A stretch of DNA of 64,000 nt, taken from assembly GCF_000014445.1 (NCBI RefSeq), contig NC_008531.1, forward strand, positions 86,001 to 150,000. Reading direction: 5' to 3'. Below the pieces are notes generated by a model. That model was given only the letters and a program-made list of their open reading frames with translations. It was not told the origin of the DNA and did no database searches. Positions within the stretch are counted from its first letter, which is position 1. Each line of letters begins with the position of its first letter. The stretch is from Leuconostoc mesenteroides subsp. mesenteroides ATCC 8293 (GTDB taxonomy: Bacteria; Bacillota; Bacilli; Lactobacillales; Lactobacillaceae). A program made the translations under genes and the position numbers. Positions 3,930-34,804 of this stretch are shown piece by piece.

Positions 3930-4213
3930 AATGAGACAAAGAAAAGATAAGTAAATTTTAGGGGTAATCAAAGAGAGCTAACATTTGGTGAAAGTTAGTA
4001 TTACGAATGAATTGAAAATGGTCTTGGAGTCGTTAGTGGTATAAGCATGTTCGTGAATACCGCTCGGGTGCGCCCGTTATCGCGTTAAGGTATCTCTCTT
4101 TTGATGTACCTGTCAAGTATAAAGTAGTGATACTTTATAGAATTTGGGTGGTAACACGAGTTTTTCGTCCCATAATCTTTGTAGATAATGCAAAGATTAT
4201 GGGACTTTTTTTG
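3930..4213 (+). promoter_or_regulatory. T-box leader 1 (probable methionine specifier)
   Basis: It carries the AGTA box at 3950-3953, the AGAGAGC motif at 3972-3978, the GAA of the loop-E fold at 4014 followed by ATG at 4018-4020, then CTTGGAG. The T-box core GGGTGGTAACACG (4146-4158) has the UGGU bulge at 4149-4152, and there is a perfect 15-bp terminator (4167-4181 with 4191-4205) plus T-run. UGGU pairs with a tRNA whose discriminator base is A. Among codons readable near the GAA, ATG is followed by a purine and fits Met tRNA; Val (GTC) is the remaining alternative. The first thing downstream is a decayed cyclase gene, then T-box leader 2. Confidence 0.88.
4064..4203 (+). repeat. 140-nt near-identical repeat, copy 1 (antiterminator half of T-box leader 1)
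   Basis: This segment and 11829-11968 are the same length and differ at two positions by eye (both in the stretch after TTAAGGTAT). The remaining upstream halves of the two leaders are clearly more diverged, so this is a recent duplication or a gene-conversion tract, not just shared T-box consensus. Confidence 0.85.
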
Positions 4214-4243
4214 TTGATGAATAAAATGAATGGAGAATAAGTA

Positions 4244-4390
4244 ATGACCAATAAATTGTATGATGTTTTGACTGTATTAAAGAAGTTTCCATGGATTGAT
4301 TTAACTATTTTTCCAGCTTTTATTGATGTGGGCTTTGAAACAATATTGATATCGGATAGCAAGCCTATATCGTCTACGACTAAGTCGTAA
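4244..4390 (+). pseudogene. Remnant of a cyclase (kynurenine-formamidase-like) gene
   Basis: A 48-codon frame with a good ribosome site (GGAGAATAAGTA) starts MTNKL and carries LKKFPWIDLT, then PAF and FETI. This matches the first 45 residues of the intact cyclase at 12013 (MTNKL, LKEFQWVDLT, PAF, FETL) with about nine residues missing between DLT and PAF. It then loses similarity and stops. The remnant sits behind T-box leader 1 exactly as the intact gene sits behind T-box leader 3. I infer a duplicated leader-plus-cyclase unit truncated by deletion. A short functional peptide cannot be excluded but is unlikely. Confidence 0.7.
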
Positions 4391-4427
4391 TTATCAATTT
4401 TAACTTTAAAGAAGTAACTGCAGTTTT

Positions 4428-4700
4428 AAAGACAAAGAAAAGATAAGTAAATTTAAAGAGTAACTGAAAGAGAGCCGACGAATTGGTGAAAGTTGGTGTT
4501 ACGAATAAGTTGAAAATGGTCTTGGAGTCATAGAATGGGTGAGCAAGTATGTAAATTCATTCCGGGTGTGCCCGATATAGCACAGAGTTTTGTTAAAAAA
4601 CAGAACTTAAAGAGAATAATTTAGTGATAGATTATTGAATGCGAGTGGTAACACGATTTTCGTCCCGCAATCTGGCTATTTTTAGCTGGGTTGCTTTTTT
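4428..4700 (+). promoter_or_regulatory. T-box leader 2 (probable methionine specifier)
   Basis: AGTA at 4446-4449, AGAGAGC, and a GAAAATGG specifier region (ATG at 4516-4518) followed by CTTGGAGT. The T-box core GTGGTAACACG has the UGGU bulge at 4646-4649. The terminator stem 4667-4678/4683-4694 (12 bp with three G-T wobbles) is followed by six Ts. It controls the yxe-like operon starting at 4826. I see no clear promoter between leader 1 and leader 2, so this leader may be read through from leader 1, giving two T-box checkpoints in series. Confidence 0.87.
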
Positions 4701-4825: not shown

Positions 4826-5908
4826 ATGAGTGATCAAACACTACAAAAAGAACTAGAAAACATTGAGGTAACGGATACACTACAGGCGTGTCCGATTGAT
4901 TTTTCACAATCAAAGGTTGCTAATCCGCGAGCGCATCAAAAGCAAAAAGAATATGACAACGGTAAAGACAAGTCCAATTTTAATGAACGAGAAAAGTTTT
5001 CAGCCTATCAAGGCCCCCAATTTAAAGCCCGGTTTACAGACGGTACGCTTCCTGTTACACCTAACCGTTATCGCTTGATTTGGTCTCGTCATTGCCCTTG
5101 GGCTAATCGTATTGCCATTGGTATTGATTTATTAGGTTTAGATCAAGTGATTTCTAATGGCATCGTTGATCCTTTGAGACCAGCTGGGGTAGTTGGAGAC
5201 TGGTTCTTTACGTTAGATGATGGGGATGTTGATCCAGTATTAGGGATTCATTCACTTGGGGAAGCTTACCGGTTAGCTGATCCTTCATACGATAAAAGAA
5301 CGACGGTACCAGCACTCGTTGACACTCAAACCGGTAAGGTTGTTAACAATGATTATAATAATTTAATCAAAGAATTTGCCTTAGCCTGGCAAGAATATGT
5401 ACCAGAAACTGCACCGGACTTATATCCTAAGAACTTGCGTTCAGATATTGATGCGTTGAGTGACATCATATTGATGGACATCAATTATGCGGTTAATGAG
5501 GCGGGTCATGGACGTTCTCAAGCAGATTATAAAAAATGGTATGACAAAGTATTTAATCGATTAGATTGGCTAGAGGAGCGCCTAGCCAACCAACGCTACT
5601 TATTCGGTGACCAAATAACATTAGTAGATATTAATTTATATGTCACGCTGTCACGATTTGACTTAGTGTTTTATCAAAAGTATTTTGTTAATAAAAAACG
5701 TTTAGTTGATTATCCTAATTTGTGGAACTACGCTAAGGATTTGTATGCCATCCCTGCATTTGGCGACAATACTAATTTTGAATCAATGCGTCAACGTTTT
5801 TATGAGGTTGATCATACACCGCAAGAGGATCTGCCTCGAATTATTCCATTAGGGCCAGATGATAGTATTTGGGAAGAAGCAAATGACAGAGCAGAAAAAT
5901 TTGGTTAG
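4826..5908 (+). CDS. Glutathione S-transferase-like protein, Xi class (Ecm4/YqjG-type)
   Basis: A 360-aa protein with the Xi-class glutathione transferase layout: a thioredoxin-fold N-terminal half with catalytic Cys90 in SRHCPWANR, and an all-alpha C-terminal half (residues about 195-330) with the QRYLFGDQITLVDINLYVTLSRFD signature. Family members (E. coli YqjG, yeast Ecm4) are glutathionyl-hydroquinone reductases that remove a thiol from an S-conjugate through the cysteine. The ATG at 4826 is chosen over the upstream TTG at 4811 because GAGGAG lies at 4813-4818. It is the first gene after T-box 2 and overlaps the next gene by 26 bp. Reductive thiol release from an S-adduct is my inference. 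Confidence 0.85.
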   Translation: MSDQTLQKELENIEVTDTLQACPIDFSQSKVANPRAHQKQKEYDNGKDKSNFNEREKFSAYQGPQFKARFTDGTLPVTPNRYRLIWSRHCPWANRIAIGIDLLGLDQVISNGIVDPLRPAGVVGDWFFTLDDGDVDPVLGIHSLGEAYRLADPSYDKRTTVPALVDTQTGKVVNNDYNNLIKEFALAWQEYVPETAPDLYPKNLRSDIDALSDIILMDINYAVNEAGHGRSQADYKKWYDKVFNRLDWLEERLANQRYLFGDQITLVDINLYVTLSRFDLVFYQKYFVNKKRLVDYPNLWNYAKDLYAIPAFGDNTNFESMRQRFYEVDHTPQEDLPRIIPLGPDDSIWEEANDRAEKFG

Positions 5909-7217
5909 TAATACTCGGAAGTTAGCCCAGTTAATTGTAGATTCCAAGTTCCAAATAGACGAATTGAATGTTGCCAAAAAATGCTTTGTGGATTATTTAG
6001 CAAGTGCCTATGTTTCTAGAAATGAACCAGCGGTGAAAAGATTATTTGACACACTCAAAAATGCTGGACCGGCTAAGCTTTTAGGTCAAGCTGGTACAGC
6101 TAGTAGTGATCATGCCGCATTATTTAATGGATTCGCTGCACATTACAATGATTTCGATGATGTTCAAGCTAATTTTCGCGGCCATCCAAGTGTTGTCATT
6201 TATTCAGCTTTGTTAGCTCTTGCTGATGGGACTGAAAGTGCAGATAGATTTTTTGAGGCCTATATTGTAGGTGTGGAAATTGCTGGACAAATTGGATTTC
6301 AAGTCAACCCAACACACAAGTTATCTGGGTACCACACAACTGCAACCCTTGGTACGATTGCTGCAGCTGCTAGCCTTCCTTTCTTTAAACGTTTTTCCTT
6401 GGGTCAAACTATCGACATTTTATCATTTGCTGCTACACAAGCCGCAGGTCTTGGAATAGAGGCAGGTACTGATACTAAGCCAATGCATGCGGGGTTAGCT
6501 GCACAGCGTGCGGTGCAATCCTATCAATTTGTGTCCAGCCAACTTACAACCAATCAAGATGTTTTTAACAATCAAACAGGCTGGGTAAAAATAGTTGTTG
6601 GGCAGGAATTAGATTTAGATTTAATAGAATCAACATGGTTAACTCCTGCTCAAATTATCACGCCTGGCATCTGGTTTAAGCGACATCAATTTTGCTCTGC
6701 TGCTATGTCTGGGTATGATGCAATCAAACAGGGCTACCTTCAGGGAATTAATATAAAAAACATCAAGCAAGTAATTTTCCATTTTAGACCTTTTGGAGAT
6801 AAGGTCTTGCGGTATAAGCAACCATTGAATGGGCAAGAAGGAAAGTTTTCAATTGAGTACATTGCGTGGCAAATATTAACCTTTGGGGATGTGAATGACG
6901 AACTTTTTGATAGCAGTGTAAGTACAGAAAAGTTTCAAGAGATGAGTTATTTGTTTAAAAGAGTTAATGATTTAAAGAATATAGCTGTTGATCAAAGGGA
7001 AATACTAGTTGAGTTCGTGCGTACTGACAAATCTATCAATACAATATATATTGATTGGCCCCAAGGGTCACCACAGAATCCACTAACAATGGATGAGATA
7101 TATGTCAAATTAGCTCATGCATTGTCGATAGATGAAAATGAATTATTCGATATTTTGACGGCGGGATTGACATCGAAATCGGTAGCAGGATTGCTTAACA
7201 TTATTGCAAGAATTTAA
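5883..7217 (+). CDS. MmgE/PrpD family protein (YxeQ-like)
   Basis: A 444-aa protein with the MmgE/PrpD fold signature: NGFAAHYNDFDDVQANFRGHPS near residue 75, HTTATLGTIAAAA near residue 150, and TKPMHAGLAAQRAV near residue 200. The family includes 2-methylcitrate dehydratase, cis-aconitate decarboxylase and iminodisuccinate epimerase, all acting at carbons next to carboxylates of succinate-like substrates. B. subtilis YxeQ belongs to the same family and sits in an operon of the same make-up. ATG 5883 (preceded by GGAAGAAG) is preferred to ATG 5859. An epimerase, dehydratase or lyase step on a succinylated thiol is plausible but not shown. Confidence 0.85.
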   Translation: MTEQKNLVSNTRKLAQLIVDSKFQIDELNVAKKCFVDYLASAYVSRNEPAVKRLFDTLKNAGPAKLLGQAGTASSDHAALFNGFAAHYNDFDDVQANFRGHPSVVIYSALLALADGTESADRFFEAYIVGVEIAGQIGFQVNPTHKLSGYHTTATLGTIAAAASLPFFKRFSLGQTIDILSFAATQAAGLGIEAGTDTKPMHAGLAAQRAVQSYQFVSSQLTTNQDVFNNQTGWVKIVVGQELDLDLIESTWLTPAQIITPGIWFKRHQFCSAAMSGYDAIKQGYLQGINIKNIKQVIFHFRPFGDKVLRYKQPLNGQEGKFSIEYIAWQILTFGDVNDELFDSSVSTEKFQEMSYLFKRVNDLKNIAVDQREILVEFVRTDKSINTIYIDWPQGSPQNPLTMDEIYVKLAHALSIDENELFDILTAGLTSKSVAGLLNIIARI

Positions 7218-7238
7218 AGCAGCTACCCTGGAGGAAAA

Positions 7239-7796
7239 GTGATTACTAATCGATTCATTAAAAAAAATGAAGTAAAAGAATTACAGCTCTTATTACATGA
7301 AGCGTATAAGAGTGACACACAACTAGGTATTAATTTTCAAGCGGCAAGAGTTACTTTACAACAGATTGATGAACATATCGAGAACACAGCAACCTTTGTG
7401 ACAGAGATAAATCATACTATTGTAGCGACGGTATCTGTCAGGTTACCTTGGTCAAAAAATCCAGGTCCGTATGCTATACCTCATCTTGGATGGGTTGCTA
7501 CTCATAGTCAGTTTTCAAAGCAAGGTTATGCAACACAACTTATTGATTGGGTTGAAAAAGAGTACATTCAAAAACAACTAAAAGCTCCAATGGTTAGTTT
7601 AGGAACAGCGGTTGAACATCCTTGGTTAAAAAGATTTTATACTTCAGTTGGTTACCAACCCGTTGAGATGGTACAAAAAACGCCGGATCATTTGACAGTG
7701 TATATGGTAAAAGTTTTGAATAGAAAATTTGACCAGTTAGAGTCTGAACAATTGAAGAAATATCTAAATAAAAATAAAACAAAAGTACGTTATTAG
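7239..7796 (+). CDS. GNAT N-acetyltransferase (YxeL/SnaB-like role)
   Basis: A GCN5-related acetyltransferase of 185 aa. The acetyl-CoA site is in LGWVATHSQFSKQGYATQLIDWVEKEY (residues about 85-110), and the C-terminal half ends with the usual FYTSVGYQPVEM strand pair. It starts at GTG 7239 behind a strong GGAGG (7230-7234). In the B. subtilis yxe operon the GNAT enzyme N-acetylates S-(2-succino)cysteine or related S-alkyl cysteines before C-S cleavage, and a deacylase later removes the acetyl group. The pairing with the M20 deacylase at 10122 supports the same protect-deprotect logic here. Confidence 0.78.
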   Translation: MITNRFIKKNEVKELQLLLHEAYKSDTQLGINFQAARVTLQQIDEHIENTATFVTEINHTIVATVSVRLPWSKNPGPYAIPHLGWVATHSQFSKQGYATQLIDWVEKEYIQKQLKAPMVSLGTAVEHPWLKRFYTSVGYQPVEMVQKTPDHLTVYMVKVLNRKFDQLESEQLKKYLNKNKTKVRY

Positions 7797-7810
7797 TGAG
7801 TAGGTGAAAT

Positions 7811-8479
7811 ATGAATTTTGATTGGCATTACTTTGTAAATACATTTCCAGAACTTGTGAAATATATTCCGATGACGCTTTTGTTAGCAATACTATCTATG
7901 TTATTAGCGATAGTATTGGGTGGCATAATTACATTACTACACTTTTCGCATTATAAGGTTATTCATTGGTTTGCTTCAATATATGTATCTTTCTTTCGAG
8001 GAATGCCAGCTTTGGTGCAGCTATTCTTAATCTATTATGGTTTACCACAAATTTTCCCGATATTTAAAGGGTTGCCTGCCATTATTGCCACTGTTATTGG
8101 TCTTGGTTTCAAGCAATCTGCTTACTTATCTGAGGTATTTAGAGCAGCGGTAAATTCTGTTGATAGAGGGCAAATAGAGGCAGGACAGTCACTTAATATC
8201 AAAAGTTTTAAAATTTTCCGTTATGTAATTTTACCGCAAGCATTTATCAATGCCTTACCTGCTACGGGTAATACATTTGTTGGTTTGTTAAAAGAAACTT
8301 CGTTAGCCTTTACTTTAGGCATAACAGAGGTTTTTGCAGAAGGAAAGATGTTGGCCGGTGATTCATTTAAATATTTTGAAACATATTTAGCGGTCGGTCT
8401 TACATATTGGGTGTTAATTATTCTTTATTCATGGGCACAGTCTGGGGTAGAGAGAGTACTGAACACGCCATATAGTTAG
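7811..8479 (+). CDS. Amino-acid ABC transporter permease, HisM type (YxeN-like)
   Basis: A membrane permease (222 aa, about five helices) of the polar amino-acid uptake family. The N-terminal helix is followed by ASIYVSFFRGMPALVQLFLIYYG, and the cytoplasmic EAA loop reads EAGQSLNIKSFKIFRYVILPQA. It lies 14 bp before the ATPase gene and forms a complete importer with it and the binding protein at 9281. As a single permease gene it probably works as a homodimer. Confidence 0.88.
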   Translation: MNFDWHYFVNTFPELVKYIPMTLLLAILSMLLAIVLGGIITLLHFSHYKVIHWFASIYVSFFRGMPALVQLFLIYYGLPQIFPIFKGLPAIIATVIGLGFKQSAYLSEVFRAAVNSVDRGQIEAGQSLNIKSFKIFRYVILPQAFINALPATGNTFVGLLKETSLAFTLGITEVFAEGKMLAGDSFKYFETYLAVGLTYWVLIILYSWAQSGVERVLNTPYS

Positions 8480-8493
8480 AAAGGATAGACATT

Positions 8494-9246
8494 ATGGCTC
8501 TGATTGAAGTAAATAATTTATCTGTTGAAATTAAAAAAAAGAAAATACTGCAGGAAATCAATTTTTCTGTTGAGAAGGGAGAGGTAACGGTTTTGGTTGG
8601 ACCGAGTGGTTCAGGGAAAACAACGCTCTTACGAACACTAAATCTGTTACAAGAACCTTCTCAAGGTACTATAAAAATTGGTGGAACATCTATTGATGGC
8701 CGTAAAATTAACAAAAAATCAACGCGATCCTTACGATCGGAGTCAACAATGGTATTCCAGCAATTTAATCTATTTAAAAATATGACTGTCATTGAGAATG
8801 TGATGGCACCCCTATTGTTAAATAAATTGGCTAAGTGGGATGAAGCACATGACATTGCTGCATCAGTTTTATCGGAAGTAGGATTAGTGGCGTTTCAAGA
8901 TAAGTATCCAAGTTCACTTTCAGGGGGACAGCAGCAGCGCGTTTCAATAGCTCGTGCAATTGCAGCAAAACCATCTGTTGTCTTATTGGATGAGCCAACC
9001 TCGGCATTAGATCCTGAATTAGTTGGAAGTGTTTTAAAAACGATACTGGCATTAGCCAAACAGCATATAACAATGGTTATTGTGACACATGAAATGGAAT
9101 TCGCCCGACTAATCGGAAATCAAATTATTTTCTTAGAAAATGGACAAATTGTCCATAAAGGATCGCCTGATCAAGTCTTGTCAAGCAATGGTCCCAAAAG
9201 AGTCAATGATTTTGTAAATTCTGTTTCAAAAAATAATTATTTATAA
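8494..9246 (+). CDS. Amino-acid ABC transporter ATP-binding protein (YxeO-like)
   Basis: A 250-aa ABC ATPase with Walker A GPSGSGKTT (residues 36-44), Q-loop VFQQFNLF, signature LSGGQQQR, Walker B VVLLDEPTSALD and H-loop VTHEM. The GlnQ/HisP subclass drives uptake of polar amino acids. An AAAGGAT ribosome site precedes the ATG. It powers the permease encoded just upstream. Confidence 0.92.
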   Translation: MALIEVNNLSVEIKKKKILQEINFSVEKGEVTVLVGPSGSGKTTLLRTLNLLQEPSQGTIKIGGTSIDGRKINKKSTRSLRSESTMVFQQFNLFKNMTVIENVMAPLLLNKLAKWDEAHDIAASVLSEVGLVAFQDKYPSSLSGGQQQRVSIARAIAAKPSVVLLDEPTSALDPELVGSVLKTILALAKQHITMVIVTHEMEFARLIGNQIIFLENGQIVHKGSPDQVLSSNGPKRVNDFVNSVSKNNYL

Positions 9247-9280
9247 GCTGTATTGAATAAAAAAGAAAAGAGAAGAGCGT

Positions 9281-10096
9281 ATGAAAAAAAGGAACCCAAT
9301 CATTAGTGTGATTATCGTCGTAGTATTAATTGCTATTGTTGCCGTAGGCGGTTTGATTTATCAAACCAATAACCATAAAAACGAAGCCAAAGGAGATACT
9401 AAACAAAAAGTGCTTAAAATTGGCGCGACGGGAACCAGCTTCCCAACAGCATACAAATCAAAAGGAAAATTAGTTGGTTTTGATGTTGACGTAATCAATG
9501 CAGCAGCAAAAAAAGCAGGATACAAAGTACAGTGGGTCACTGGTGAATTCGATGGTTTGCTGGGGCAACTAGATAACAATAAGCTTGACACTGTGGCTAA
9601 TGATGTTGCTATTACACCAGAAAGAAAAGCTAAGTACAAGTTTAGTAATATTTATAACAAAGAAGAAACAACAGTAGCAGTTAACAAAGATTCTGATTAT
9701 AATACATTAAATGATTTAGAAGGCAAGACAATTGCTGGCGCATCTGCCTCAAACAATACCAAAAATTTGCAAGACTATAATAGTAAAATCAAATTTAAGT
9801 TATATGATGCCCGTGACGTCACTTTTCAAGCTTTACTAGCAGGGCACGTTGATGGTGTGGTTAACACACGTAATAATTTAGAGGCGTTAATCAAAGCCAA
9901 AAATTACCCTTGGAAGGTTGTGAAAGGGAGTGCAGCAACTGTAAATATTGCCTTGCCTTTCCGTAAAGATGATAGTGAAAGCGCAAAAATATTAAAGAAG
10001 CTCAACCCAGCAATCAATAAACTAAAGGAAGATGGGACGTTGAAAAAACTATCCGAAAAATACTTCGGGTATGACGCAACAGCTGATTTAAAGTAA
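9281..10096 (+). CDS. Amino-acid ABC transporter substrate-binding protein (YxeM-like), membrane-anchored
   Basis: A 271-aa periplasmic-binding-protein type II (SBP family 3) with the typical GFDVDVINAAAKKAGYKVQWV and LDTVANDVAITPERKAKYKFS motifs. Residues 7-27 are a long hydrophobic segment preceded by KKR, but there is no lipobox cysteine and no clear AXA cleavage site, so it appears tethered by an uncleaved N-terminal helix. The ligand is not evident from sequence; the operon context suggests a cysteine S-conjugate. Its gene follows the ATPase gene and precedes the deacylase. Confidence 0.87.
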   Translation: MKKRNPIISVIIVVVLIAIVAVGGLIYQTNNHKNEAKGDTKQKVLKIGATGTSFPTAYKSKGKLVGFDVDVINAAAKKAGYKVQWVTGEFDGLLGQLDNNKLDTVANDVAITPERKAKYKFSNIYNKEETTVAVNKDSDYNTLNDLEGKTIAGASASNNTKNLQDYNSKIKFKLYDARDVTFQALLAGHVDGVVNTRNNLEALIKAKNYPWKVVKGSAATVNIALPFRKDDSESAKILKKLNPAINKLKEDGTLKKLSEKYFGYDATADLK

Positions 10097-10121
10097 CAGG
10101 ATAAGAACATGAGGCAATATA

Positions 10122-11288
10122 ATGGCAATCAATGACAAAACACTAGAAGATAAATTAACCAAGGTACGCCATCAGCTGCACCAACATCCGGAACTATCTA
10201 ATCAAGAACACCAGACTACATTGTTTTTAAATAGTTACTTGGAAACTTTAGGTTATCATATTGTAACACCACAAAAATTATTGACTGGTGTGATTGCTGA
10301 AATAGGGCCAAGTGAATCAAACGTAATTATTGGATTAAGATCAGATATTGATGCCTTACCAATCGCCGAAAAAACTGGGCTCAATTATGCATCGGTTAAT
10401 GAAGGTATTATGCATGCTTGCGGGCATGACTTCCATATGGCTTCCTTGTTAGGAGCGGCAGAATTATTAGCTGACCAAGCTAATAAGCTAACCGGCAGGG
10501 TTCGATTAATTTTTCAACCCGCAGAAGAAATTCATGTAGGTGCCCAAGCTGTGGCAGAAGCTGGTGGTATTAAAAACTTGAATGCAATTATTGGTTTTCA
10601 TAATAAGCCGGACCTGAAAGTTAACGAAATTGGCATTCTATCTGGTGGATTGATGGCGGCAGTTGATCAATTTAAAGTTACTTTTCGTGGTCAGGGTACA
10701 CACGCGGCTATGCCACAGTTAGGGAATGACCCCATTGTTGCTTTAACGAGCACCGTCAATACGCTACAGACCGTTGTTAGCCGTAAAACAGATCCACAAA
10801 GTCCAGTTGTTGTTTCTGTTACACATATTGATGGTGGTAGTACATGGAATGTATTACCTGATGTTGCTTGGTTTGAGGGTACGGTTCGAAGTTTTGACCT
10901 GGCCAGTCGTCAATTAGCTCGAGAACAATTCTATCAAATTGTTAACGGCCAGGCTGCAACTTTTGGTTTGGCGGTTGATATTTCCTGGATTGAAGGTCCA
11001 AACGTTGTTAATAACGATAGTGAGCTGACGCCCATTGTTATAGAAGAAACCAAACAACATGCGAAATTACTCACACCAAAACCATCTAATGCAGGAGAAG
11101 ATTTTTCGTATTTTAGTCAGAAAGTACCAAGTGTTTTTGCATTTATTGGTAGTGCAGGCACAACTGATTGGCATCATGATGATTTAATTATTGACGACCG
11201 TGGTCTGTTGCCAGCTGCTAGATGGTATTTCTACACAGCTAACCGGTTATTAGCACATTTTAGTGGTACAACCACAAATGATAGATAG
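10122..11288 (+). CDS. M20 family N-acyl amino acid amidohydrolase (YxeP/HipO-like)
   Basis: A metal-dependent deacylase of 388 aa. Conserved metal ligands are Cys100 and His102 (MHACGHD), Glu135-Glu136 (QPAEE), His160 (GFHNK) and the C-terminal WHHDD, with the dimerisation domain between. This set (Cys plus His ligands) is typical of hippurate/N-acetyl-amino-acid amidohydrolases. In the yxe pathway of B. subtilis the equivalent enzyme releases cysteine from N-acetylcysteine. It starts with ATG 10122, close behind the binding protein gene. Substrate is inferred from operon content. Confidence 0.85.
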   Translation: MAINDKTLEDKLTKVRHQLHQHPELSNQEHQTTLFLNSYLETLGYHIVTPQKLLTGVIAEIGPSESNVIIGLRSDIDALPIAEKTGLNYASVNEGIMHACGHDFHMASLLGAAELLADQANKLTGRVRLIFQPAEEIHVGAQAVAEAGGIKNLNAIIGFHNKPDLKVNEIGILSGGLMAAVDQFKVTFRGQGTHAAMPQLGNDPIVALTSTVNTLQTVVSRKTDPQSPVVVSVTHIDGGSTWNVLPDVAWFEGTVRSFDLASRQLAREQFYQIVNGQAATFGLAVDISWIEGPNVVNNDSELTPIVIEETKQHAKLLTPKPSNAGEDFSYFSQKVPSVFAFIGSAGTTDWHHDDLIIDDRGLLPAARWYFYTANRLLAHFSGTTTNDR

Positions 11289-11302
11289 GAGAATTTTTAA
11301 GA

Positions 11303-11617
11303 ATGGTAGTAAAAGCAATAACTGATGAACAATATCAAGAAGAAGTAGAAACTGGTGTTTCTATCGTTGATTTCTGGGCTACTTGGTGTGGCCCGTGTCG
11401 GATGCAGTCACCTGTGTTAGAAACTGTATCTGAAGATAGAAATGATATTCATTTTTTTAAAGTTGACGTAGACATTAGTCAAGAAACAGCTGCTTCGCTT
11501 GGCATTCGAGCTATACCTACCTTGGTAGTGCACAAAGACGGGAAAATCGTTGAACGACTAACTGGCTTTCATAATAGCGAACAGCTAGTGAATATTTTAA
11601 ATAAGTATGTTGATTAA
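11303..11617 (+). CDS. trxA: Thioredoxin
   Basis: A canonical 104-aa thioredoxin with the active site Trp28-Cys29-Gly-Pro-Cys32 and the cis-proline IPT motif (AIPTLVVHKDGK). An AGGAGAA ribosome site precedes the ATG and the gene is 14 bp after the M20 gene, so it is part of the same operon. A dedicated thioredoxin at the end of a T-box-controlled sulfur operon suggests it supplies electrons for a thiol-exchange step, for example to recycle the Cys90 enzyme at 4826. Similar thioredoxins serve general redox needs, so this role is an inference. Confidence 0.9.
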   Translation: MVVKAITDEQYQEEVETGVSIVDFWATWCGPCRMQSPVLETVSEDRNDIHFFKVDVDISQETAASLGIRAIPTLVVHKDGKIVERLTGFHNSEQLVNILNKYVD

Positions 11618-11690: not shown

Positions 11691-11976
11691 ACCAAAAACT
11701 TTGAAAAGATAAGTACAAATTAGAGTGATTGTGTAGAGAGCTAACGTGAGGTGAAAGTTAGCATCATAAAAATTTGGAAAATGGTCTTGGAGTTAAATTG
11801 ATATGAGCTTAATGTGAGTAAATGTCATTCGGGTGCGCCCGTTATCGCGTTAAGGTATATTTCTTTTGATGTACCTGTCAAGTATAAAGTAGTGATACTT
11901 TATAGAATTTGGGTGGTAACACGAGTTTTTCGTCCCATAATCTTTGTAGATAATGCAAAGATTATGGGGCTTTTTT
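11691..11976 (+). promoter_or_regulatory. T-box leader 3 (probable methionine specifier)
   Basis: AGTA at 11712-11715, AGAGAGC, specifier region GGAAAATGGTC (ATG at 11781-11783) and CTTGGAG. T-box core GGGTGGTAACACG has UGGU at 11914-11917, and a 13-bp terminator (11934-11946 with 11956-11968) is followed by a T-run. It controls the operon of cyclase, permease, SDR, MetQ-like protein, ABC transporter and oxidase. No gene lies in 11618-12012 apart from this leader. Confidence 0.9.
11829..11968 (+). repeat. 140-nt near-identical repeat, copy 2 (antiterminator half of T-box leader 3)
   Basis: Matches 4064-4203 over its full length with two differences by eye. It marks the duplication that also produced the cyclase remnant at 4244. 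Confidence 0.85.
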
Positions 11977-12012
11977 ATTGTCGTATGTAGAAAAAATAAT
12001 GGAGAATGGTCT

Positions 12013-12759
12013 ATGACAAACAAATTAAATAACATCTTATCAGAATTGAAAGAATTTCAGTGGGTTGATTTAACCCATACATTTGGGCCTGATAGCCCGC
12101 ACTTCCCAGCGTTCGCTGCCGCAAAATTTGAAACACTTTTTACACATGATGATGGTTTTTTCGTGAAACAGTATACCTTCCCAGGTCAATATGGTACGCA
12201 TATTGATCCACCGGTACATTTCGAGAAAAATCAGAATGTATATGACTCAGATATTGATCTGAAAGACTTTTTACTACCGTTAGTAGTCATTGACAAATCA
12301 AGTGAAGTAGCAAGTAATGCAGATTATATTTTAACAGTGGAAGATATTAAGCAGTGGGAAAAGGAGCATGGCACCATTCCACCAAAAGCTTTTGTAGCGT
12401 TACGAACAGACTGGTCAAAGCGTTGGCCATCACAAGAACAATTTGAAAATAAGGATGATAATTTACAAAATCATTATCCTGGCTGGTCTTTGGAAGCACT
12501 TAAATATATTTATGAAGAGCGTCAAGCAATAGCAAATGGACATGAAACTTTCGATACTGACCCTGCCATTTTACAACCAGAAAAAGGGTTTGAAGGTGAA
12601 TATTATGTATTGAGTAGTGGCCATTATCAAATTGAACTACTGGCTAATTTGGACCAAGTGCCGGCCACGGGCGCTTTAATTTCAATATCAGTGCCGAAAG
12701 TTGAAAAATCTCCTGGATTTCCAGCTCGAGTATTTGCCATAGTTCCCGAGGAGGTTTGA
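12013..12759 (+). CDS. Cyclase family protein (kynurenine formamidase-like hydrolase)
   Basis: A 248-aa metal-dependent hydrolase of the cyclase family. The hallmark metal site is YGTHIDPPVHF (His63, Asp65, His69), with WVDLTHTF near residue 20. Members hydrolyse N-formylkynurenine, isatin or other amides and lactones. ATG 12013 is used because GGAG lies at 12001-12004. It is the first gene behind T-box 3 and ends one base before the APC permease start. Together with the N-methyl-amino-acid oxidase at the operon end it suggests removal of an N-blocking group from an amino acid, but the substrate is unknown. A decayed copy is at 4244. Confidence 0.83.
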   Translation: MTNKLNNILSELKEFQWVDLTHTFGPDSPHFPAFAAAKFETLFTHDDGFFVKQYTFPGQYGTHIDPPVHFEKNQNVYDSDIDLKDFLLPLVVIDKSSEVASNADYILTVEDIKQWEKEHGTIPPKAFVALRTDWSKRWPSQEQFENKDDNLQNHYPGWSLEALKYIYEERQAIANGHETFDTDPAILQPEKGFEGEYYVLSSGHYQIELLANLDQVPATGALISISVPKVEKSPGFPARVFAIVPEEV

Positions 12760-12760
12760 T

Positions 12761-14092
12761 ATGGCAGAGAATAAAATAACATTATCACGATCACTTTCCA
12801 CAAAAGATTTGGTTGTTTACGGCATTATATTCATGATCCCAGTAGCGCCTATCGCCTTTTACGGTTCATTTCTATCGCCAGCCCATGGTATGGTGGCGCT
12901 AGCTTATCTAATCGGAATGATTGCTATGTTATTTACTGGATTTAGTTATGCTAGCATGGCTAGTGAGTTTCCTTACTCTGGTTCGGTGTATACTTACGTT
13001 CAAAAAGGAACAAATCCTGTGTTAGGTTTTCTATCAGGATGGGGTATAACGCTTGATTATATTTTAATTCCCGTTATAACCTATCTTATCAGCGCGTCTT
13101 TCGGTCAGTCATTGTTGCCGGCTGTTCCTTTCTGGGTTTGGATTCTAGGCATAGCCATATTTAATACAGTTATCAATTTATTAGGGATTAAAGTTGTATC
13201 GAAATTCAGTTGGTTACTTTTTGGGTTACAGGGCGTGGTTTTAATAGCTTTCATCGTGGGGACTATTGTTGCCTTAGCGAATGGTACAGTTAGTTTTAAT
13301 GTCAGTTCGTTTTATAATGCTAGTCATTTTGATTTGTCCGGAGTTGTTCAAGCGACTGGGATTGTTATTGTCAGTTATTTAGGTTTTGATGCCATTAGTA
13401 CTTTATCAGAAGAAGCTAACGATCCAACTAAATCAATTGGAAAAGCGATTGTGTTGTCAATTATTTTAATCGGCTCATTATTCGTCATCGTTACATTCTT
13501 TGCAGGTTTTGTTGCACCAAATTATAGTGAATTAAATCCAGATACAGCATTTTTAACTATTTTGGGAAAAGTGGGTGGTAGCTGGTTAGTGCATTTAGCT
13601 GAATTCACTTTAGTTTTATCATTTGGTTTGGCGGGTGGTCAAGAAGGGCAGACTGCGGTATCAAGAATTTTGTATTCAATGGGACGAGACGGTATTTTAC
13701 CAAAGCGCTTATCCTACTTGCATCCCCGTTATAACACGCCGTGGGTTGCCATTATACTTGTGGGGATTGTATCTGTTGCCCTTTCCCTATCATTATCGTT
13801 AACCACAGTATCAAATTTAATTAGCTTTGGCGCCCTATTTGGTTTTTTGTCATTAAACATAGCTGTTATTTGGCATTTTTATATCAAGCGTCCTGATAAA
13901 AATATTGAGTCGTTTGTAAAGTATTTAGTGTCACCCTTCATTGGGTTTTCAGTGAGTTTGTGGATATTTTTGAGTTTAGCTCTTGAAGCAAAATTAACTG
14001 GGTTATTTTGGTTAATCATTGGACTCGTTATTTTAGTATATAAAACGAGTATTTTTAAAAAACCTGTACCCCAGTTTGATTTTTCAGAATAA
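12761..14092 (+). CDS. APC superfamily amino acid permease
   Basis: A secondary transporter of 443 aa with about 12 membrane helices. Helix 1 has the unwound GIIFMIPVAPIAFYGSF segment and helix 6 has GFDAISTLSEEANDPTKSIGKAI, both typical of APC/PuuP-YfnA-like amino acid/polyamine permeases. It is translationally close to the cyclase (1-bp gap, GAGGAGG ribosome site inside the cyclase end). It probably brings in a substrate or exports a product of the T-box 3 operon; which amino acid is carried cannot be read from the sequence. Confidence 0.87.
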   Translation: MAENKITLSRSLSTKDLVVYGIIFMIPVAPIAFYGSFLSPAHGMVALAYLIGMIAMLFTGFSYASMASEFPYSGSVYTYVQKGTNPVLGFLSGWGITLDYILIPVITYLISASFGQSLLPAVPFWVWILGIAIFNTVINLLGIKVVSKFSWLLFGLQGVVLIAFIVGTIVALANGTVSFNVSSFYNASHFDLSGVVQATGIVIVSYLGFDAISTLSEEANDPTKSIGKAIVLSIILIGSLFVIVTFFAGFVAPNYSELNPDTAFLTILGKVGGSWLVHLAEFTLVLSFGLAGGQEGQTAVSRILYSMGRDGILPKRLSYLHPRYNTPWVAIILVGIVSVALSLSLSLTTVSNLISFGALFGFLSLNIAVIWHFYIKRPDKNIESFVKYLVSPFIGFSVSLWIFLSLALEAKLTGLFWLIIGLVILVYKTSIFKKPVPQFDFSE

Positions 14093-14142
14093 ATTTTTAA
14101 TGCTAATGATACAAACTTTATGTAAAGAGACAGGAGTAGTAA

Positions 14143-14919
14143 ATGTCAAAGAAAGTAGCAATTATTACAGGCAGTGGTAGAGGAATAGGAAAAGCAATTG
14201 CTGAGAGACTCGCGACAGAAAATTATTACGTTGCAGTAGTCGACATTGATGAATCTAGTGCTAAATATGTGAGTGATAGTATCAACGCTATTAAGGAAAA
14301 CCAAGCCAAATATTATGTTTTAGATGTTGCTGATCGAAAATCAGTTTTTGATTTGGTTGATAAAGTAGTAGCTGATTTTGGGCGTCTAGATGTATTTGTT
14401 AATAACGCAGGGATTGCCTACATTGATAGCATTATCGATAGTGATCCGGAAAAAGTTGAGCGGTTGTTTGATGTTAACCTTAAGGGCACTTTTTGGGGAA
14501 TCCAGGCGGCTGCAAAACAGTTGAAAAAGCAAGGGAGTGGCGGAAGGATAATCAATGCTGCTTCACTGGCTGCAGTGGAAGGATCTGCACTACAAGGCGC
14601 ATATTCAGCTTCCAAATTTGCCATTAGAGGATTAGGTCAATCTGCGGCAAAAGAACTCGCAAAATATAATATCACTGTAAATACTTATGATCCGGGTATT
14701 GTTATTACACCTTTGCGCGATTATATTGATCAGCGAACAGCACAAATTAAAAACACAACAGCTGAGATTCAAAGGCAAAGTGTTGTCAATGAAATTGCGT
14801 TAGGAAGAGCGGCTTTGCCTGATGATGTAGCCGATGTTGTATCATTTTTGGTTTCACAGCAGGCAAAGTATATTACTGGGCAATCGATTTTAATTGATGG
14901 TGGTATGAGATTTCATTGA
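14143..14919 (+). CDS. Short-chain dehydrogenase/reductase, acetoin-reductase-like
   Basis: A classical SDR of 258 aa: Gly-rich cofactor motif GSGRGIG (residues 10-16), NNAG at 87-90, and catalytic Ser141, Tyr154 and Lys158. Asp35 after the second strand (VVDID) favours NAD(H). It aligns residue for residue at the active site with the acetoin/diacetyl reductase paralogue at 40386, yet lies inside a T-box-controlled nutrient operon. It may therefore reduce or oxidise an intermediate of this pathway rather than acetoin. Automatic annotation as diacetyl reductase should be treated with caution. Confidence 0.85.
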   Translation: MSKKVAIITGSGRGIGKAIAERLATENYYVAVVDIDESSAKYVSDSINAIKENQAKYYVLDVADRKSVFDLVDKVVADFGRLDVFVNNAGIAYIDSIIDSDPEKVERLFDVNLKGTFWGIQAAAKQLKKQGSGGRIINAASLAAVEGSALQGAYSASKFAIRGLGQSAAKELAKYNITVNTYDPGIVITPLRDYIDQRTAQIKNTTAEIQRQSVVNEIALGRAALPDDVADVVSFLVSQQAKYITGQSILIDGGMRFH

Positions 14920-14966
14920 TGTTTTGTAAGTATTTCTAATAAAAAGTTCAGGAAAGAGAATTTGAG

Positions 14967-15830
14967 ATGGTAAAAAAGAAAACGGTAGTTATAGCAGCTG
15001 TTGTGGCAGGAATTGTTATTGTAGCAGGTGTGATTATTCATAGAAACACGGCGCAAACAACCGATAAGACGGAAGTGACGGTCGGATCAATAGGATCGGA
15101 TGCCCAGATTTGGGAATATATTGCAAAACTACCAGAAACCAAAAAAGAAAATATCACTATCAAGGTTAAGAACTTCACTGATGGGGTTTCACTAAATGCA
15201 GCGACTGCACAAGGGAAAGTGGATGTTAATGCCTTTCAATCATACGCATATTTTGTGGCTTATAACAAGAATAATAGCTCGAACAAGTTGAGTGTTTTAG
15301 GGACGACATACTTAGAGCCTATGGGCATTTACTCTGAAAAATATGATTCTATCGACGATATTCCAGATGGTTCAACAATTGCTATTGCTAACAATGCAGC
15401 TAACACGGCACGTGGATTGAAACTGCTGGCAAAAGCAGGATTAATAACATTAAAAGATAATTTTGGTAGTCTTTCTGGCGTTAATGACATTAAAAACAAC
15501 CCACACAACTTCAAGTTTAAAGAAATTGATGATACGACCGGGCCACGAGTGATTAAAGACAATTCGATTGCCGCTGCACTGATTGGAAATACAATCGCAT
15601 TGGAAGGCAAACTGAATGTTTTGAAAGATTCACTTTACTACGAAAAAATTAACCAATCAACAAAGGACAATATTAATATTCTAGCCACAGCAGAAAAGAA
15701 TAAGAATAATGCTAAATTTAAAAAGTTAGTTAAGTTGTATCATAGTAAAGCAGCTCAAAAATATATTAACAAAAAGTTTGATGGTACTAAAATCGAAGTT
15801 CAAAAGTCTGTCTCTTATTTAGCTGACTGA
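14967..15830 (+). CDS. MetQ-like (NLPA family) substrate-binding protein, membrane-anchored
   Basis: A 287-aa member of the NLPA/MetQ family, recognised by VTVGSIGSDAQIWEYI, FTDGVSLNAATAQGKVDVNAFQSYAYF and the IAIANNAANTARGLKLL segment. MetQ proteins bind D- and L-methionine for the MetNI importer. Here the N-terminus has a hydrophobic helix (residues 7-24) and no lipobox cysteine, and the adjacent permeases are HisM-type rather than MetI. The methionine link agrees with the T-box specifier. It may present methionine or a methionine derivative to the neighbouring transporter. Confidence 0.85.
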   Translation: MVKKKTVVIAAVVAGIVIVAGVIIHRNTAQTTDKTEVTVGSIGSDAQIWEYIAKLPETKKENITIKVKNFTDGVSLNAATAQGKVDVNAFQSYAYFVAYNKNNSSNKLSVLGTTYLEPMGIYSEKYDSIDDIPDGSTIAIANNAANTARGLKLLAKAGLITLKDNFGSLSGVNDIKNNPHNFKFKEIDDTTGPRVIKDNSIAAALIGNTIALEGKLNVLKDSLYYEKINQSTKDNINILATAEKNKNNAKFKKLVKLYHSKAAQKYINKKFDGTKIEVQKSVSYLAD

Positions 15831-15868
15831 CAAGTGAATTTGATAATTAATTGGGAAGGATTAATTTA

Positions 15869-16525
15869 ATGTCTTGGGAGTATATACAGCAAGCTGAACC
15901 TGAATATATTAAAGCATTTTGGCTAACACTGAAGCTGTCTTCAGTCGGTATTGTAGGAGCAATAATTATTGGCATAGTAACAGCGTTTGTCAACTATCAT
16001 AAATTACCCGGGCGAAGAGGGATTATAACATACGTTGAAATTGCCCGGAATACACCATTGCTTATTCAATTATTTTTTATCTATTATGGTTTACCATCAA
16101 TCGGAATTAAAATTCCGGCCGAAGAGACTGCTATTATTGGTTTGATTTTTCTGGGTGGTGCCTATATGAGTGAGGCATTTTTAGGTGGTCTAAAGTCGGT
16201 TCCTAAAGTTCAAATTGAGTCTGGACGAGTGATCGGACTATCTGCGTGGCAGTTAAGTAGATATATTATTTTCCCACAGGGTATCGTTTTTTCACTACCT
16301 AGCTTGGCGGCCAACATAATCTTTTTAATTAAAGAAACCTCAATATTTACGGTCATTGCGATTCCAGAAATTACTAATACCACGTTAGATCTAATTGGAC
16401 AAAATTATCGAACCAATGAATATTTATTAATGATGATTATTAGTTATGCGATTATTTTAATACCTCTTTCGTTACTTTTGAGTTGGATTGAAGGGCGGGT
16501 GCGTTATGCAAATTTTGACAATTAG
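15869..16525 (+). CDS. Amino-acid ABC transporter permease, HisM type
   Basis: A 218-aa permease with about five helices, the VEIARNTPLLIQLFFIYYGLP motif and the EAA loop (ESGRVIGLSAWQLSRYIIFPQ). ATG 15869 is selected because GGAAGGA (15853-15859) precedes it. It overlaps the next permease gene by 20 bp, and the two probably form a heterodimer powered by the ATPase at 17179. Confidence 0.87.
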   Translation: MSWEYIQQAEPEYIKAFWLTLKLSSVGIVGAIIIGIVTAFVNYHKLPGRRGIITYVEIARNTPLLIQLFFIYYGLPSIGIKIPAEETAIIGLIFLGGAYMSEAFLGGLKSVPKVQIESGRVIGLSAWQLSRYIIFPQGIVFSLPSLAANIIFLIKETSIFTVIAIPEITNTTLDLIGQNYRTNEYLLMMIISYAIILIPLSLLLSWIEGRVRYANFDN

Positions 16526-17186
16526 CACTATCTTTGCGGGGAATAACTTATTCAGGTTATTGAATGGATTGGTTGTCACTATTGAAATATCATTAATATC
16601 GATTATTTTGGGCACAATATTAGGCGTCATACTGGGATCGTTGTGGTCTGCCGCCGGCACACTGATTAAACCCATTTTCAAAGCATATCTTGAGATATTT
16701 AGAGTGGTACCAACCATTCCATTATTATTTTTATTTTATTATATTTTTCCGCGTAATTTAAATATCAATTTATCAGCCATGCAAGTGAGTATTTTAGTTT
16801 TTAGTTTATGGTTTGCAGCTGAGCTTTCTGATATTGTTCGAGGCGCGATACAATCAATTTCTAAAAGTCAGCGTGAAAATGCCTATTCGATAGGGTTAAC
16901 AACGTTGCAAACCTACAGGTATGTATTAATTCCACAAAGCGTTCCCAATATTCTACCAGCTTTTATTAACTTAAGTTCTAGAATTATTAAAACGACGTCA
17001 ATTTTACTTTTAATATCCGTTACCGATGTTATTACAGTAGGGCAACAGATTATTGAGGCGAACGCCCAAGATACTGCTGTTCCACTTTTGATTTATGGTT
17101 TTATTGCGTTGTTATATTTCTTGATTAATTATTTATTAAGTCATTTTAGTCGCAGGTTAGAAAGGAAATATCGAAAATATGAGTGA
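16506..17186 (+). CDS. Amino-acid ABC transporter permease, second subunit
   Basis: A 226-aa HisM-type permease: EIFRVVPTIPLLFLFYYIFP after helix 2 and an EAA loop in QRENAYSIGLTTLQTYRYVLIPQ. It begins at ATG 16506 inside the end of the first permease gene and overlaps the ATPase start by 8 bp, indicating translational coupling. An upstream in-frame TTG (16488) lacks a better ribosome site. Confidence 0.85.
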   Translation: MQILTISTIFAGNNLFRLLNGLVVTIEISLISIILGTILGVILGSLWSAAGTLIKPIFKAYLEIFRVVPTIPLLFLFYYIFPRNLNINLSAMQVSILVFSLWFAAELSDIVRGAIQSISKSQRENAYSIGLTTLQTYRYVLIPQSVPNILPAFINLSSRIIKTTSILLLISVTDVITVGQQIIEANAQDTAVPLLIYGFIALLYFLINYLLSHFSRRLERKYRKYE

Positions 17187-17919
17187 GAGTTTGATTCAGA
17201 CTAGTAGTTTAGATAAGTTTTATGGTAAGAAGCAAGTTTTACATCAAATCAATGTGACAATACCGAAAAATAAAGTCACGGTTTTGTTAGGCCCGTCGGG
17301 ATCAGGAAAATCTACGCTGATTCGAACATTTAATGGACTAGAAAATTTTAGTTCTGGTGAAATAAATATATTCGGACAAACAATTGAACCCCGAAATAAC
17401 AAACAATGGAAAAGTATTCAAACGCGTATTGGCATGGTATTTCAGAGTTATGATTTGTTTCCAAATATGACCGTTATGAAAAACATTCTATTAGGACCCC
17501 TTAAAGTTCAAAAACGTTCGCGCGAAGAAGTGGTGGAAAAAGCCAAAAAATTACTGAGTGAAGTGGGCTTATCTGAATATGAAAATGCTTATCCCCGTCA
17601 GTTATCAGGTGGGCAAAAACAGCGAGTAGCCATTGTGAGAGCATTAATTTTGAATCCAGAGCTTATGTTATTTGATGAAGTGACAGCATCATTAGATCCA
17701 GAAATGGTTCGTGGCATTTTGGATATTTTGAAAAACTTAGCCAATAAAAATTTAACAATGGTTATTGTAACGCATGAGATGAACTTTGCTCGTCAGGTTG
17801 GGAACAAAGTTATTTTCTTAGAAAATGGCAGGGTTGTGGAACAAGGAGATGGGGCAACATTTTTCACTCATCCAACCACAAAAAGAGCAGAGGCGTTTTT
17901 AGAAAGTATGTCTTTTTAA
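17179..17919 (+). CDS. Amino-acid ABC transporter ATP-binding protein
   Basis: A 246-aa GlnQ-type ATPase with Walker A GPSGSGKST, Q-loop VFQSYDLF, signature LSGGQKQR, Walker B LMLFDEVTASLD and H-loop VTHEM. The Walker B box has Glu followed by Val in place of the usual Pro (DEVTASLD), seen in a minority of this family and compatible with activity. It energises the two permeases encoded upstream. Confidence 0.92.
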   Translation: MSESLIQTSSLDKFYGKKQVLHQINVTIPKNKVTVLLGPSGSGKSTLIRTFNGLENFSSGEINIFGQTIEPRNNKQWKSIQTRIGMVFQSYDLFPNMTVMKNILLGPLKVQKRSREEVVEKAKKLLSEVGLSEYENAYPRQLSGGQKQRVAIVRALILNPELMLFDEVTASLDPEMVRGILDILKNLANKNLTMVIVTHEMNFARQVGNKVIFLENGRVVEQGDGATFFTHPTTKRAEAFLESMSF

Positions 17920-17979
17920 AAATCAAACTACATTAGATGATCCTTAGTGAGTACAAATAAAGAAAGAGAGAAAGAGAAT

Positions 17980-30011: not shown

Positions 30012-30298
30012 ACATATAACGTTGAAAAGATAAGTACTTGTCAAAATGATTGTATAGAGAGCTAATGTTTGGTGAAAGTTAGTATCAGGATGGCTAGGAA
30101 AATGGTCTTGGAGTTAATAGTGATGTGAGCAATAAGGTTTGTAAATATCATTCGGGTACACCCGTTACAGTGTCAGAGTATCGAAAGCATTGTCTTTTCT
30201 GTACTTGGTAAGTGTGTACTAGTGATAGTATGCAGAAAACGGGTGGTAACACGGTAACTTCGTCCCGCAGCTTTGATTATTCAAGGCTGCGTTTTTTT
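30012..30298 (+). promoter_or_regulatory. T-box leader 4 (probable methionine specifier)
   Basis: AGTA at 30033-30036, AGAGAGC, GGAAAATGGTC with ATG at 30102-30104, then CTTGGAG. T-box core GGGTGGTAACACGG has UGGU at 30244-30247. The terminator is 30267-30276/30281-30290 with seven Ts. It controls the two UROD-fold genes and the ABC transporter that follow. The specifier core is identical to leaders 1-3. Confidence 0.9.
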
Positions 30299-30325
30299 GT
30301 TGTATGAAATAAAGGAGAAATTGAT

Positions 30326-30397: not shown

Positions 30398-30439
30398 TTC
30401 TGTTTATTAACTTTAAATTAATATCATTAAGGAGATCAC

Positions 30440-32465: not shown

Positions 32466-32480
32466 CGAGGAGAAGAGAGA

Positions 32481-33341: not shown

Positions 33342-33364
33342 AGTTTCAGAATTAAGGAGTTAAG

Positions 33365-34794: not shown

Positions 34795-34804
34795 GGAGAA
34801 TAGC

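Follow-up and report, generated by a model that had tools for sequence, protein, structure and literature searches.

A Xi-class glutathione S-transferase as candidate cleaving enzyme in an S-(2-succino)cysteine-type salvage operon of Leuconostoc mesenteroides

Here we examine an eight-gene operon in a 64,000-nucleotide stretch of the genome of Leuconostoc mesenteroides subsp. mesenteroides ATCC 8293 (contig NC_008531.1, positions 86,001 to 150,000; the whole stretch is referred to as the window, and coordinates are counted within it). By its YxeL-type GNAT, YxeMNO-type ATP-binding cassette (ABC) transporter, YxeP-type M20 enzyme and YxeQ-type MmgE/PrpD protein, the operon classes as a scm/yxe locus for the salvage of S-(2-succino)cysteine (2SC), and it carries a derived Xi-class glutathione S-transferase (GST) where related loci carry either the monooxygenase YxeK or the lyase 2SL. 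The comparative case from sequence for this GST as the missing cleaving enzyme is strong; the chemistry put forward for it is tentative. We lean slightly towards reading the operon as a third variant of the 2SC salvage locus, based on GST-catalyzed reductive cleavage of N-acetyl-2SC.

All eight open reading frames (ORFs) lie on the + strand, where an earlier sequence-only reading of the window had placed them, and Pfam backs every family. The operon begins with the GST gene (4826-5908; GST_C_2, 2.4e-15), which overlaps the gene of the MmgE/PrpD protein (5859-7217; PF03972, 6.1e-40; an alternative in-frame ATG start lies at 5883), which probably epimerizes the succino half or shifts a proton on it. 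It continues with a GNAT N-acetyltransferase with a GTG start (7239-7796; PF00583), a YxeN-like ABC permease of the polar-amino-acid/cystine type (7811-8479; PF00528), a YxeO-like ABC ATPase (8494-9246; PF00005), a YxeM-like extracellular solute-binding protein of family 3 (9281-10096; PF00497, 6.6e-35), a YxeP-like M20 amidohydrolase proposed to be an N-acetylcysteine deacetylase (10122-11288; PF01546 and TIGR01891 above cut-off), and an accessory thioredoxin (11303-11617; TIGR01068 above cut-off), with intergenic gaps of at most 34 bases throughout. The top NCBIfam models for the permease and the ATPase are the cystine permease and the L-cystine ATPase TcyN, each match falling under its model's cut-off, and the M20 enzyme and the GNAT are 41% and 36% identical, respectively, to those of one YxeK locus. 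The GNAT, ABC, M20 and MmgE components by which Hillmann et al. define a scm/yxe locus are all present, and the earlier observation of an eight-gene operon without a monooxygenase is confirmed as real. Five other genomes of the genus gave no match to the GST or the MmgE at the limits used, and the operon therefore looks like an accessory acquisition within it.

Cleaving genes of scm/yxe-type loci

We compared 38 scm/yxe-type MmgE loci, among which 19 carry a GST, 12 a 2SL and seven a YxeK, with no locus carrying two of the three. The search was begun from the MmgE side because MmgE lies near only six of 79 GST genes inspected (see below), those closest to the window's GST. MmgE was found in 12 of 395 genomes of the window's order, comprising two with a GST (the window and genome G205), nine of the 2SL kind, which have a PurB-like lyase and a GNAT plus M20 and/or ABC genes, and locus L160; in eight of 388 genomes of its class (the window and seven with a YxeK-type monooxygenase); and in five of 398 genomes of its phylum, which added G588, whose locus has a GST, and a further two MmgEs in different surroundings. 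In the class of G588, MmgE was found in 33 of 250 genomes, 14 with a GST (G588 included) and three with a 2SL, the remaining 16 having no GNAT, permease or binding protein. The total of 38 combines these searches with loci L065-L067 from the GST search after removal of duplicates (L255, L266 and L267 repeat L068, L069 and L070 and were counted once, like other short repeat loci). The cleaving gene was identified by Pfam in six of the seven YxeK and four of the 12 2SL loci, by NCBIfam in two YxeK loci, and by similarity in the rest. Eighteen loci (L212, L213 and L271-L286) without a GNAT, permease or binding-protein match or a cleaving gene were set aside as other MmgE families, and L160, which has MmgE, M20 and only an 87-codon ORF that is a piece of a 2SL-like gene, stands outside the 38. 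AspA-like genes near L166 and L215 were not counted as cleaving genes, and L037 (3 kb), in which no GNAT is visible, was entered among the GST loci. Scans covered about 10 kb on each side by BLAST (E 1e-5 or 1e-3) with window- and locus-derived queries, so that distant GNATs or lyases could be missed; six loci (L037, L160, L216, L261, L269 and L270) end at contig ends, and some of the genomes searched are incomplete (G205, 89%). In two Veillonella loci (L069 and L070) the MmgE gene next to the GST is broken into two ORFs; in a third (L068) the MmgE gene is intact.

In a tree of 26 MmgE sequences, built with ten later loci outside it, seven GST-linked MmgEs and one 2SL-linked MmgE (L158) form a single clade with 100/100 support, and the YxeK-linked MmgEs fall apart from it. 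Because GST- and 2SL-linked MmgEs share a clade, the cleaving gene appears to have changed within one MmgE lineage, and displacement of that gene inside one kind of locus would be the simplest account of the pattern. The 2SL enzyme was itself found by the same type of displacement argument, and 11 of 102 yxe loci are reported by Hillmann et al. (2022) to have neither known cleaving enzyme (PMC9706529). The derived Xi-class GST is a candidate to fill this gap.

The sequence-only reading had named a required YxeK-type monooxygenase elsewhere in the genome as one finding that would tell against its proposal. None was found: the window genome has no match to PF00296 (luciferase-family monooxygenase), for which the same search was positive in 10 of 14 control genomes, or to TIGR03860 (YxeK-type), and a hidden YxeK was rejected on these grounds. 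No protein exceeded the TIGR03860 cut-off in the 17 MmgE-GST genomes searched (of 19), G205 having a weak match far below it and the Veillonella genome of L068 having no match. Among 50 genomes with GST operons, no PF00296 protein was found in 36, and some were present in 14, with several in some of these; in three Veillonella genomes they are 349-365 amino acids long, compared with 437-474 for YxeK-type ORFs. No lyase is present among the ORFs of window positions 1-24000, and the Lyase_1 proteins of the window genome are AspA, ArgH and PurB only.

The GST thus stands where YxeK or 2SL stands in related loci, and the earlier proposal of a yxe-like operon without a monooxygenase, with the GST in the cleavage slot, is borne out in those parts. 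The replacement recurs in several families, among them Veillonella, which are strict anaerobes, and is most naturally read as an oxygen-independent route. What had been called a second route would be the third, however, 2SL already being the second (PMC9706529), and two other parts of that proposal, the thioredoxin partner and a special MmgE step, were not supported. Thioredoxin had been cast as a dedicated partner of the GST, but the 18 other MmgE-GST loci all lack it, and five further PF00085 matches lie elsewhere in the genome; with no thioredoxin match in any of 97 compared loci, it was rejected as a defining partner. A search for the same eight-gene order without YxeK had been suggested; no other locus retrieved here showed that exact order.

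Operon-type GSTs extend well beyond the MmgE loci. An Xi-GST match at E 1e-30 was found in 105 of 395 genomes of the window's order, and a separate group of Xi-GSTs adjoins GNAT genes, cystine-type ABC transporters, M20 genes and genes of cysteine and methionine metabolism, often with two to five GST ORFs. We inspected the best 79 of at least 584 GST loci, a choice that favours close relatives of the query; they come from Lactobacillaceae, Veillonella, Lachnospiraceae, Clostridium, Treponema, Paenibacillus, Streptococcus, Gilliamella and others. Within about 10 kb on each side, a GNAT was found near 60 of the 79, a full ABC set near 54, CysK near 26 and more than one GST ORF at 54, compared with a GNAT at three, a binding protein at two, CysK at none and more than one GST at one of 32 canonical Xi-GST control loci, which were hand-picked from lower-scoring matches rather than drawn at random. 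The GST-GNAT-ABC association is far above background. A role of Xi-GSTs in general as salvage enzymes was rejected, the canonical control loci being without such a neighbourhood. With YxeK and 2SL queries, the 79 loci gave a YxeK-like gene in one (L122) and a 2SL-like gene in none; the sole PurB-like gene among them (L075) is 69% identical to the window genome's PurB. L122 is from Rummeliibacillus suwonensis and has two operon-type GSTs without an MmgE or GNAT match. Multi-GST operons (L034-L143, for example L077, L088, L091, L110 and L132), from many Bacillota and some Treponema, combine two to five Xi-GST ORFs with GNATs, a cystine-type ABC transporter and CysK, MetCB or PatB genes, and the motif at the catalytic cysteine varies between the copies (CPWA, CHWS, CPHA, CQWS), which suggests split substrate ranges.

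Active-site residues of the GST and the MmgE/PrpD protein

The top PDB matches of the window GST are of the Xi type (4pts, 2e-73; 3m1g, 7e-66; then 4uss and 3r3e/YqjG), and its Cys90 is the cysteine of a CPWA motif, in agreement with the earlier assignment to the Xi class. Cys90-Pro-Trp-Ala is kept in all 18 full-length MmgE-linked GSTs, and the cysteine in 168 of 170 other operon GST sequences. The substrate site has changed in this clade. Tyr189, Tyr247 and Tyr290 are reported to line the Xi substrate site in NmGHR (PMC6345682); the window GST has Asn224, Phe282 and Phe325 instead, by an equivalence counted by hand on the alignment. This Asn/Phe/Phe triad is found in all 18 full-length MmgE-linked GSTs (eight of a first set and ten of a second), while among 222 other Xi-GST sequences the three positions are Tyr in 216, 216 and 178. 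The ninth GST of the first set (L037) is partial, with Asn224 visible, and a broken second GST copy at L261 has Tyr rather than Phe in the column of residue 325. Lys285, Arg324 and Arg338 are invariant in the same 18 proteins, the first two adjoining changed tyrosines in the sequence.

A second departure concerns the Glu-Ser pair of Xi-GSTs, which we take to bind the gamma-glutamyl part of glutathione. Present in 32 of 32 canonical controls, this pair is Asp176-Tyr177 in the window GST and mostly Asp-Tyr in the operon GSTs (Asp in 161 and Tyr in 149 of 170); the actinobacterial homologs have Asp-Phe (4pts) and Asp-Tyr (3m1g) at the same positions. Mycothiol, the cofactor of one actinobacterial member of the class, is an N-acetylcysteinyl thiol. 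That member, MstX of Corynebacterium glutamicum, is described as a mycothiol-dependent Xi-class enzyme with a monothiol mechanism at Cys67 and mycothiolyl-hydroquinone reductase activity (PMC6815410). The residue changes fit a GST that would read N-acetylcysteine rather than glutathione and release a small acidic leaving group rather than a hydroquinone. In the GST tree, which included 60 of the 170 operon sequences and 15 of the 32 controls, the GSTs of L040 and L041, from the window's family, lie inside the MmgE-linked clade; they have a long branch and differing thiol-site residues (Ser-Ser), and no salvage genes are near them.

The MmgE/PrpD protein matches 7bra (9e-65) and the IDS-epimerase 2hp0 (1.6e-31) in PDB. 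A Bacillus-like MmgE of the YxeK set has 7bra, deposited as 'Bacillus subtilis IRG1', as its best match, so that 7bra is probably YxeQ. The authors of 7bra describe an active site like that of IDS-epimerase, the putative bases being one His and one Tyr (PMC7347537). Homology, the base His99 of IDS-epimerase (His109 in the window protein and His in 17 of 17 GST-linked MmgEs) and several invariant active-site residues (Asp98, Asp100, Asp101, His109, His159, Lys207 and Lys274, kept in all 17) link the window protein to these two enzymes, and IDS is the nitrogen analogue of the succino adduct. The difference lies in the second base: Tyr145 of IDS-epimerase corresponds to Lys154 in the window protein, and this position is Lys, Arg or Ala in all 17 GST-linked MmgEs, whereas it is Tyr in 11 of 12 2SL-linked and seven of seven YxeK-linked MmgEs. 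The sole exception among these 19 is L158, the 2SL-linked protein inside the GST-linked MmgE clade. Arg107 is likewise mostly lost in GST-linked MmgEs (Ala in 11, Arg in five and Met in one of 17). By these comparisons the MmgE active site co-varies with the GST.

The sequence-only reading had assigned MmgE a rearrangement of the succinyl half special to the GST route. This does not agree with the presence of MmgE in all seven YxeK and all 12 2SL loci; epimerization is the simplest activity to expect of a protein that serves ahead of any of the three cleaving enzymes, and the nearest characterised relative with a comparable active site is an epimerase. The joint change of MmgE and GST nevertheless leaves room for a special MmgE step or a somewhat different substrate.

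The proposed pathway and its alternatives

From these comparisons the GST is probably the enzyme that cleaves the C-S bond. We infer the substrate and products, the reductive nature of the cleavage and the sequence of reactions: N-acetyl-2SC is a modestly favoured candidate for the substrate, and a reductive cleavage is favoured to about the same modest degree. In the proposed pathway, the ABC transporter would import a cysteine S-conjugate, most likely 2SC, which the YxeL-type GNAT would N-acetylate. The YxeQ-type MmgE/PrpD protein would then make the succino carbon ready for cleavage, most likely by fixing its configuration. The Cys90 thiolate of the GST would attack the sulfur, the succino carbon leaving and being protonated to succinate, and C-S cleavage would form a mixed disulfide between the GST and N-acetylcysteine. 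A cellular thiol or a thioredoxin, one of which is encoded in the window operon, could reduce this disulfide, and the M20 enzyme would deacetylate N-acetylcysteine to cysteine.

Thiol-dependent reductive cleavage is favoured because the redox cysteine is kept, the locus has no lyase or oxygenase, hosts are anaerobic, and the lyase equilibrium is unfavourable. This equilibrium is reported to favour 2SNAC by more than 150-fold (PMC9706529), and at high fumarate a cell would therefore gain from a reductive way out. The reductive route should also be irreversible, since the thiol/disulfide potential lies far below that of the fumarate/succinate couple. In its widest form, which we hold tentatively and with less than even confidence, our proposal is that a GST clade co-evolved with an altered MmgE cleaves N-acetyl-2SC reductively to succinate and N-acetylcysteine. 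This would be an irreversible, oxygen-independent third chemistry in lactobacilli, Veillonella and related anaerobes, and one part of an extensive group of GST-GNAT-ABC operons, apparently not yet described, that recover cysteine from conjugates of N-acetylcysteine rather than glutathione. We found no description of a GST role in scm/yxe loci in the open-access literature.

Several observations weigh against this proposal. We know of no activity for any GST of the MmgE-linked clade, and the carbons released by Xi and Omega enzymes, those of hydroquinones or ketones, are better leaving groups than a succinate carbanion. MstX is reported to be inactive on glutathionyl-acetophenones (PMC6815410). 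Within the stretches examined, neither thioredoxin nor M20 occurs in any of the 18 other MmgE-GST loci; there is no conserved electron donor, and the window's thioredoxin is one local addition. A glutamate-cysteine ligase-like gene in the window genome means that glutathione or gamma-glutamylcysteine may be present. The changed second base and Arg107 of MmgE indicate that the reaction or the substrate may differ from that of YxeK and 2SL loci. Several loci come from the same genera and so are not independent; a single genus supplied five of the ten MmgE-GST loci of the last set. In L122, a YxeK-like monooxygenase with 48% identity to a Bacillus-like YxeK lies about 6 kb away from the two GSTs, and L210 has a PurB-like lyase just downstream; the latter, 51% identical to the window genome's PurB, is closer to that protein than to the 2SL queries and was therefore read as a housekeeping gene. 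The T-boxes described below sense Met-tRNA, not Cys-tRNA, and with a T-box in one of seven MmgE-GST loci scanned, methionine control is not general.

The altered MmgE also bears on an alternative in which the GST cleaves the C-S bond of another dicarboxylic or electrophile-derived cysteine S-conjugate, within a wider family of mercapturate-type salvage systems that each have their own GST. Two active-site positions distinguish GST-linked MmgEs from those of YxeK and 2SL loci, and the same GST group occurs beside GNATs of other types, together with cystine-type ABC transporters and cysteine or methionine genes, with multiple GST ORFs in most of the 79 loci. One genome (G266) has both a 2SL locus and a separate triple-GST operon, so GST operons can serve other substrates. 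Set against this, all 16 of 16 YxeK and 2SL loci contain a match to the window's YxeL-type GNAT and none of 73 GST loci without MmgE does, and one of the MmgEs in the clade is linked to a 2SL. We consider this alternative unlikely on this evidence.

Two further explanations keep 2SC as the substrate or leave the GST out of the cleavage step, and both seem to us improbable. The GST could split N-acetyl-2SC without redox chemistry into fumarate and N-acetylcysteine, as 2SL does, with Cys90 serving in binding or as acid/base; its position in the locus is that of 2SL, with which it interchanges inside one MmgE clade. A lyase would not need Cys90, yet every full-length MmgE-linked GST retains it within CPWA, and the corresponding cysteine is reported to form mixed disulfides in Cys-GSTs (PMC6815410). 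Alternatively, the GST could be a thiol-disulfide reductase or a protective side protein, with a housekeeping lyase (AspA or PurB) or MmgE itself performing the cleavage. Thiol transferase activity is reported for the Xi-class MstX (PMC6815410), and the window genome does encode AspA, ArgH and PurB. Against a side role, YxeK and 2SL loci carry MmgE plus a separate cleaving enzyme, and among the 38 MmgE loci a GST occurs only where YxeK and 2SL are missing.

If the GST is the cleaving enzyme, the 11 unexplained loci among the 102 yxe loci gain a specific candidate and a replacement pattern. A reductive cleavage would give fumarate-rich anaerobes a new way to remove succination damage. GST-fold enzymes would then act on adducts of N-acetylcysteine where the thiol is one other than glutathione, and a role would be suggested for tandem GST genes in Lachnospiraceae, Clostridium and Treponema genomes.

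Methionine T-boxes, neighbouring operons and known systems

The T-box control noted by the sequence-only reading is present, but as two tandem T-boxes rather than one, and their specifier, previously unnamed, is AUG. Leader 1 lies at 3930-4175 (+ strand; Rfam RF00230, 109.4 bits) and is followed by a terminator-like hairpin (4167-4205); leader 2, directly 5' of the operon, lies at 4426-4670 (+ strand) with a hairpin at 4667-4694, and its score of 83.9 bits is below the RF00230 gathering score of 93 but has an E-value of 1.4e-17. By the RF00230 alignment both leaders have a T-box fold with an AUG specifier, the triplet after GAA-A, as do the T-boxes at 11692 and 30013, and ATG specifiers of Met T-boxes are reported in L. 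paracasei (PMC6004538). Given these specifiers, the operon should answer to methionyl-tRNA, and a Cys T-box was rejected. Sensing of Met-tRNA fits a role in the supply of sulfur amino acids rather than a cysteine-only sensor. The single T-box among the scanned MmgE-GST loci belongs to L065, the nearest relative, and also has an AUG specifier, which recurs in T-boxes 5' of the GST clusters L035, L038 and L039.

The window contains other Met T-box units. T-box 1 and a 48-codon ORF (3930-4390) resemble a truncated duplicate of the T-box and cyclase start at 11692-12075: the T-box regions share about 81% DNA identity over 376 bases, and the ORF (4244-4390, + strand) is 46% identical to the N-terminus of the cyclase (11953-12759) over 46 columns (E 1e-9), an apparent relic of duplication. 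A third leader (11692-11940, + strand; RF00230, 104.7 bits) marks the border to the following operon (11953-18825), which encodes the PF04199 cyclase, an APC permease, an SDR, an NlpA/MetQ-type lipoprotein and then amino acid ABC genes. A fourth T-box (AUG) heads a stretch (30013-35587) that encodes two proteins of the URO-D family (PF01208) and an ABC transporter for polar amino acids; URO-D proteins also lie near the GST operons of L035 and L117, possibly as a separate Met-linked system.

Among known systems, the scm operon of B. subtilis (yxeKLMNOPQ) is the closest in layout, the window operon having the same types of GNAT, ABC, M20 and MmgE/PrpD genes as Bacillus-like YxeK loci in one operon. 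It differs in that no YxeK-type monooxygenase was found in operon or genome, an Xi-type GST and a thioredoxin are present instead, and control is by Met T-boxes. The B. subtilis ytn/yha clusters for S-alkylcysteines share the strategy of acetylation, breakdown and deacetylation, but are reported to encode predicted monooxygenases (PMC12757645). Like the canonical Xi-class GSTs (E. coli YqjG and Natrialba NmGHR) and C. glutamicum MstX, the window GST has a catalytic CPWA cysteine within a shared region of about 290 residues; unlike them, its clade has Asn/Phe/Phe in place of the Tyr triad and Asp/Asn-Tyr in place of Glu-Ser, and lies in a cysteine-salvage operon, although Asp-Phe/Tyr at the Glu-Ser pair also occurs in the actinobacterial homologs of Xi-class GSTs. 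In the 2SL-type loci reported from Enterococcus italicus and Dickeya dadantii (PMC9706529), YxeK is likewise replaced within the same gene set by an oxygen-independent enzyme; there the replacement is a PF00206-type lyase, whereas in the window it is a Cys-GST.

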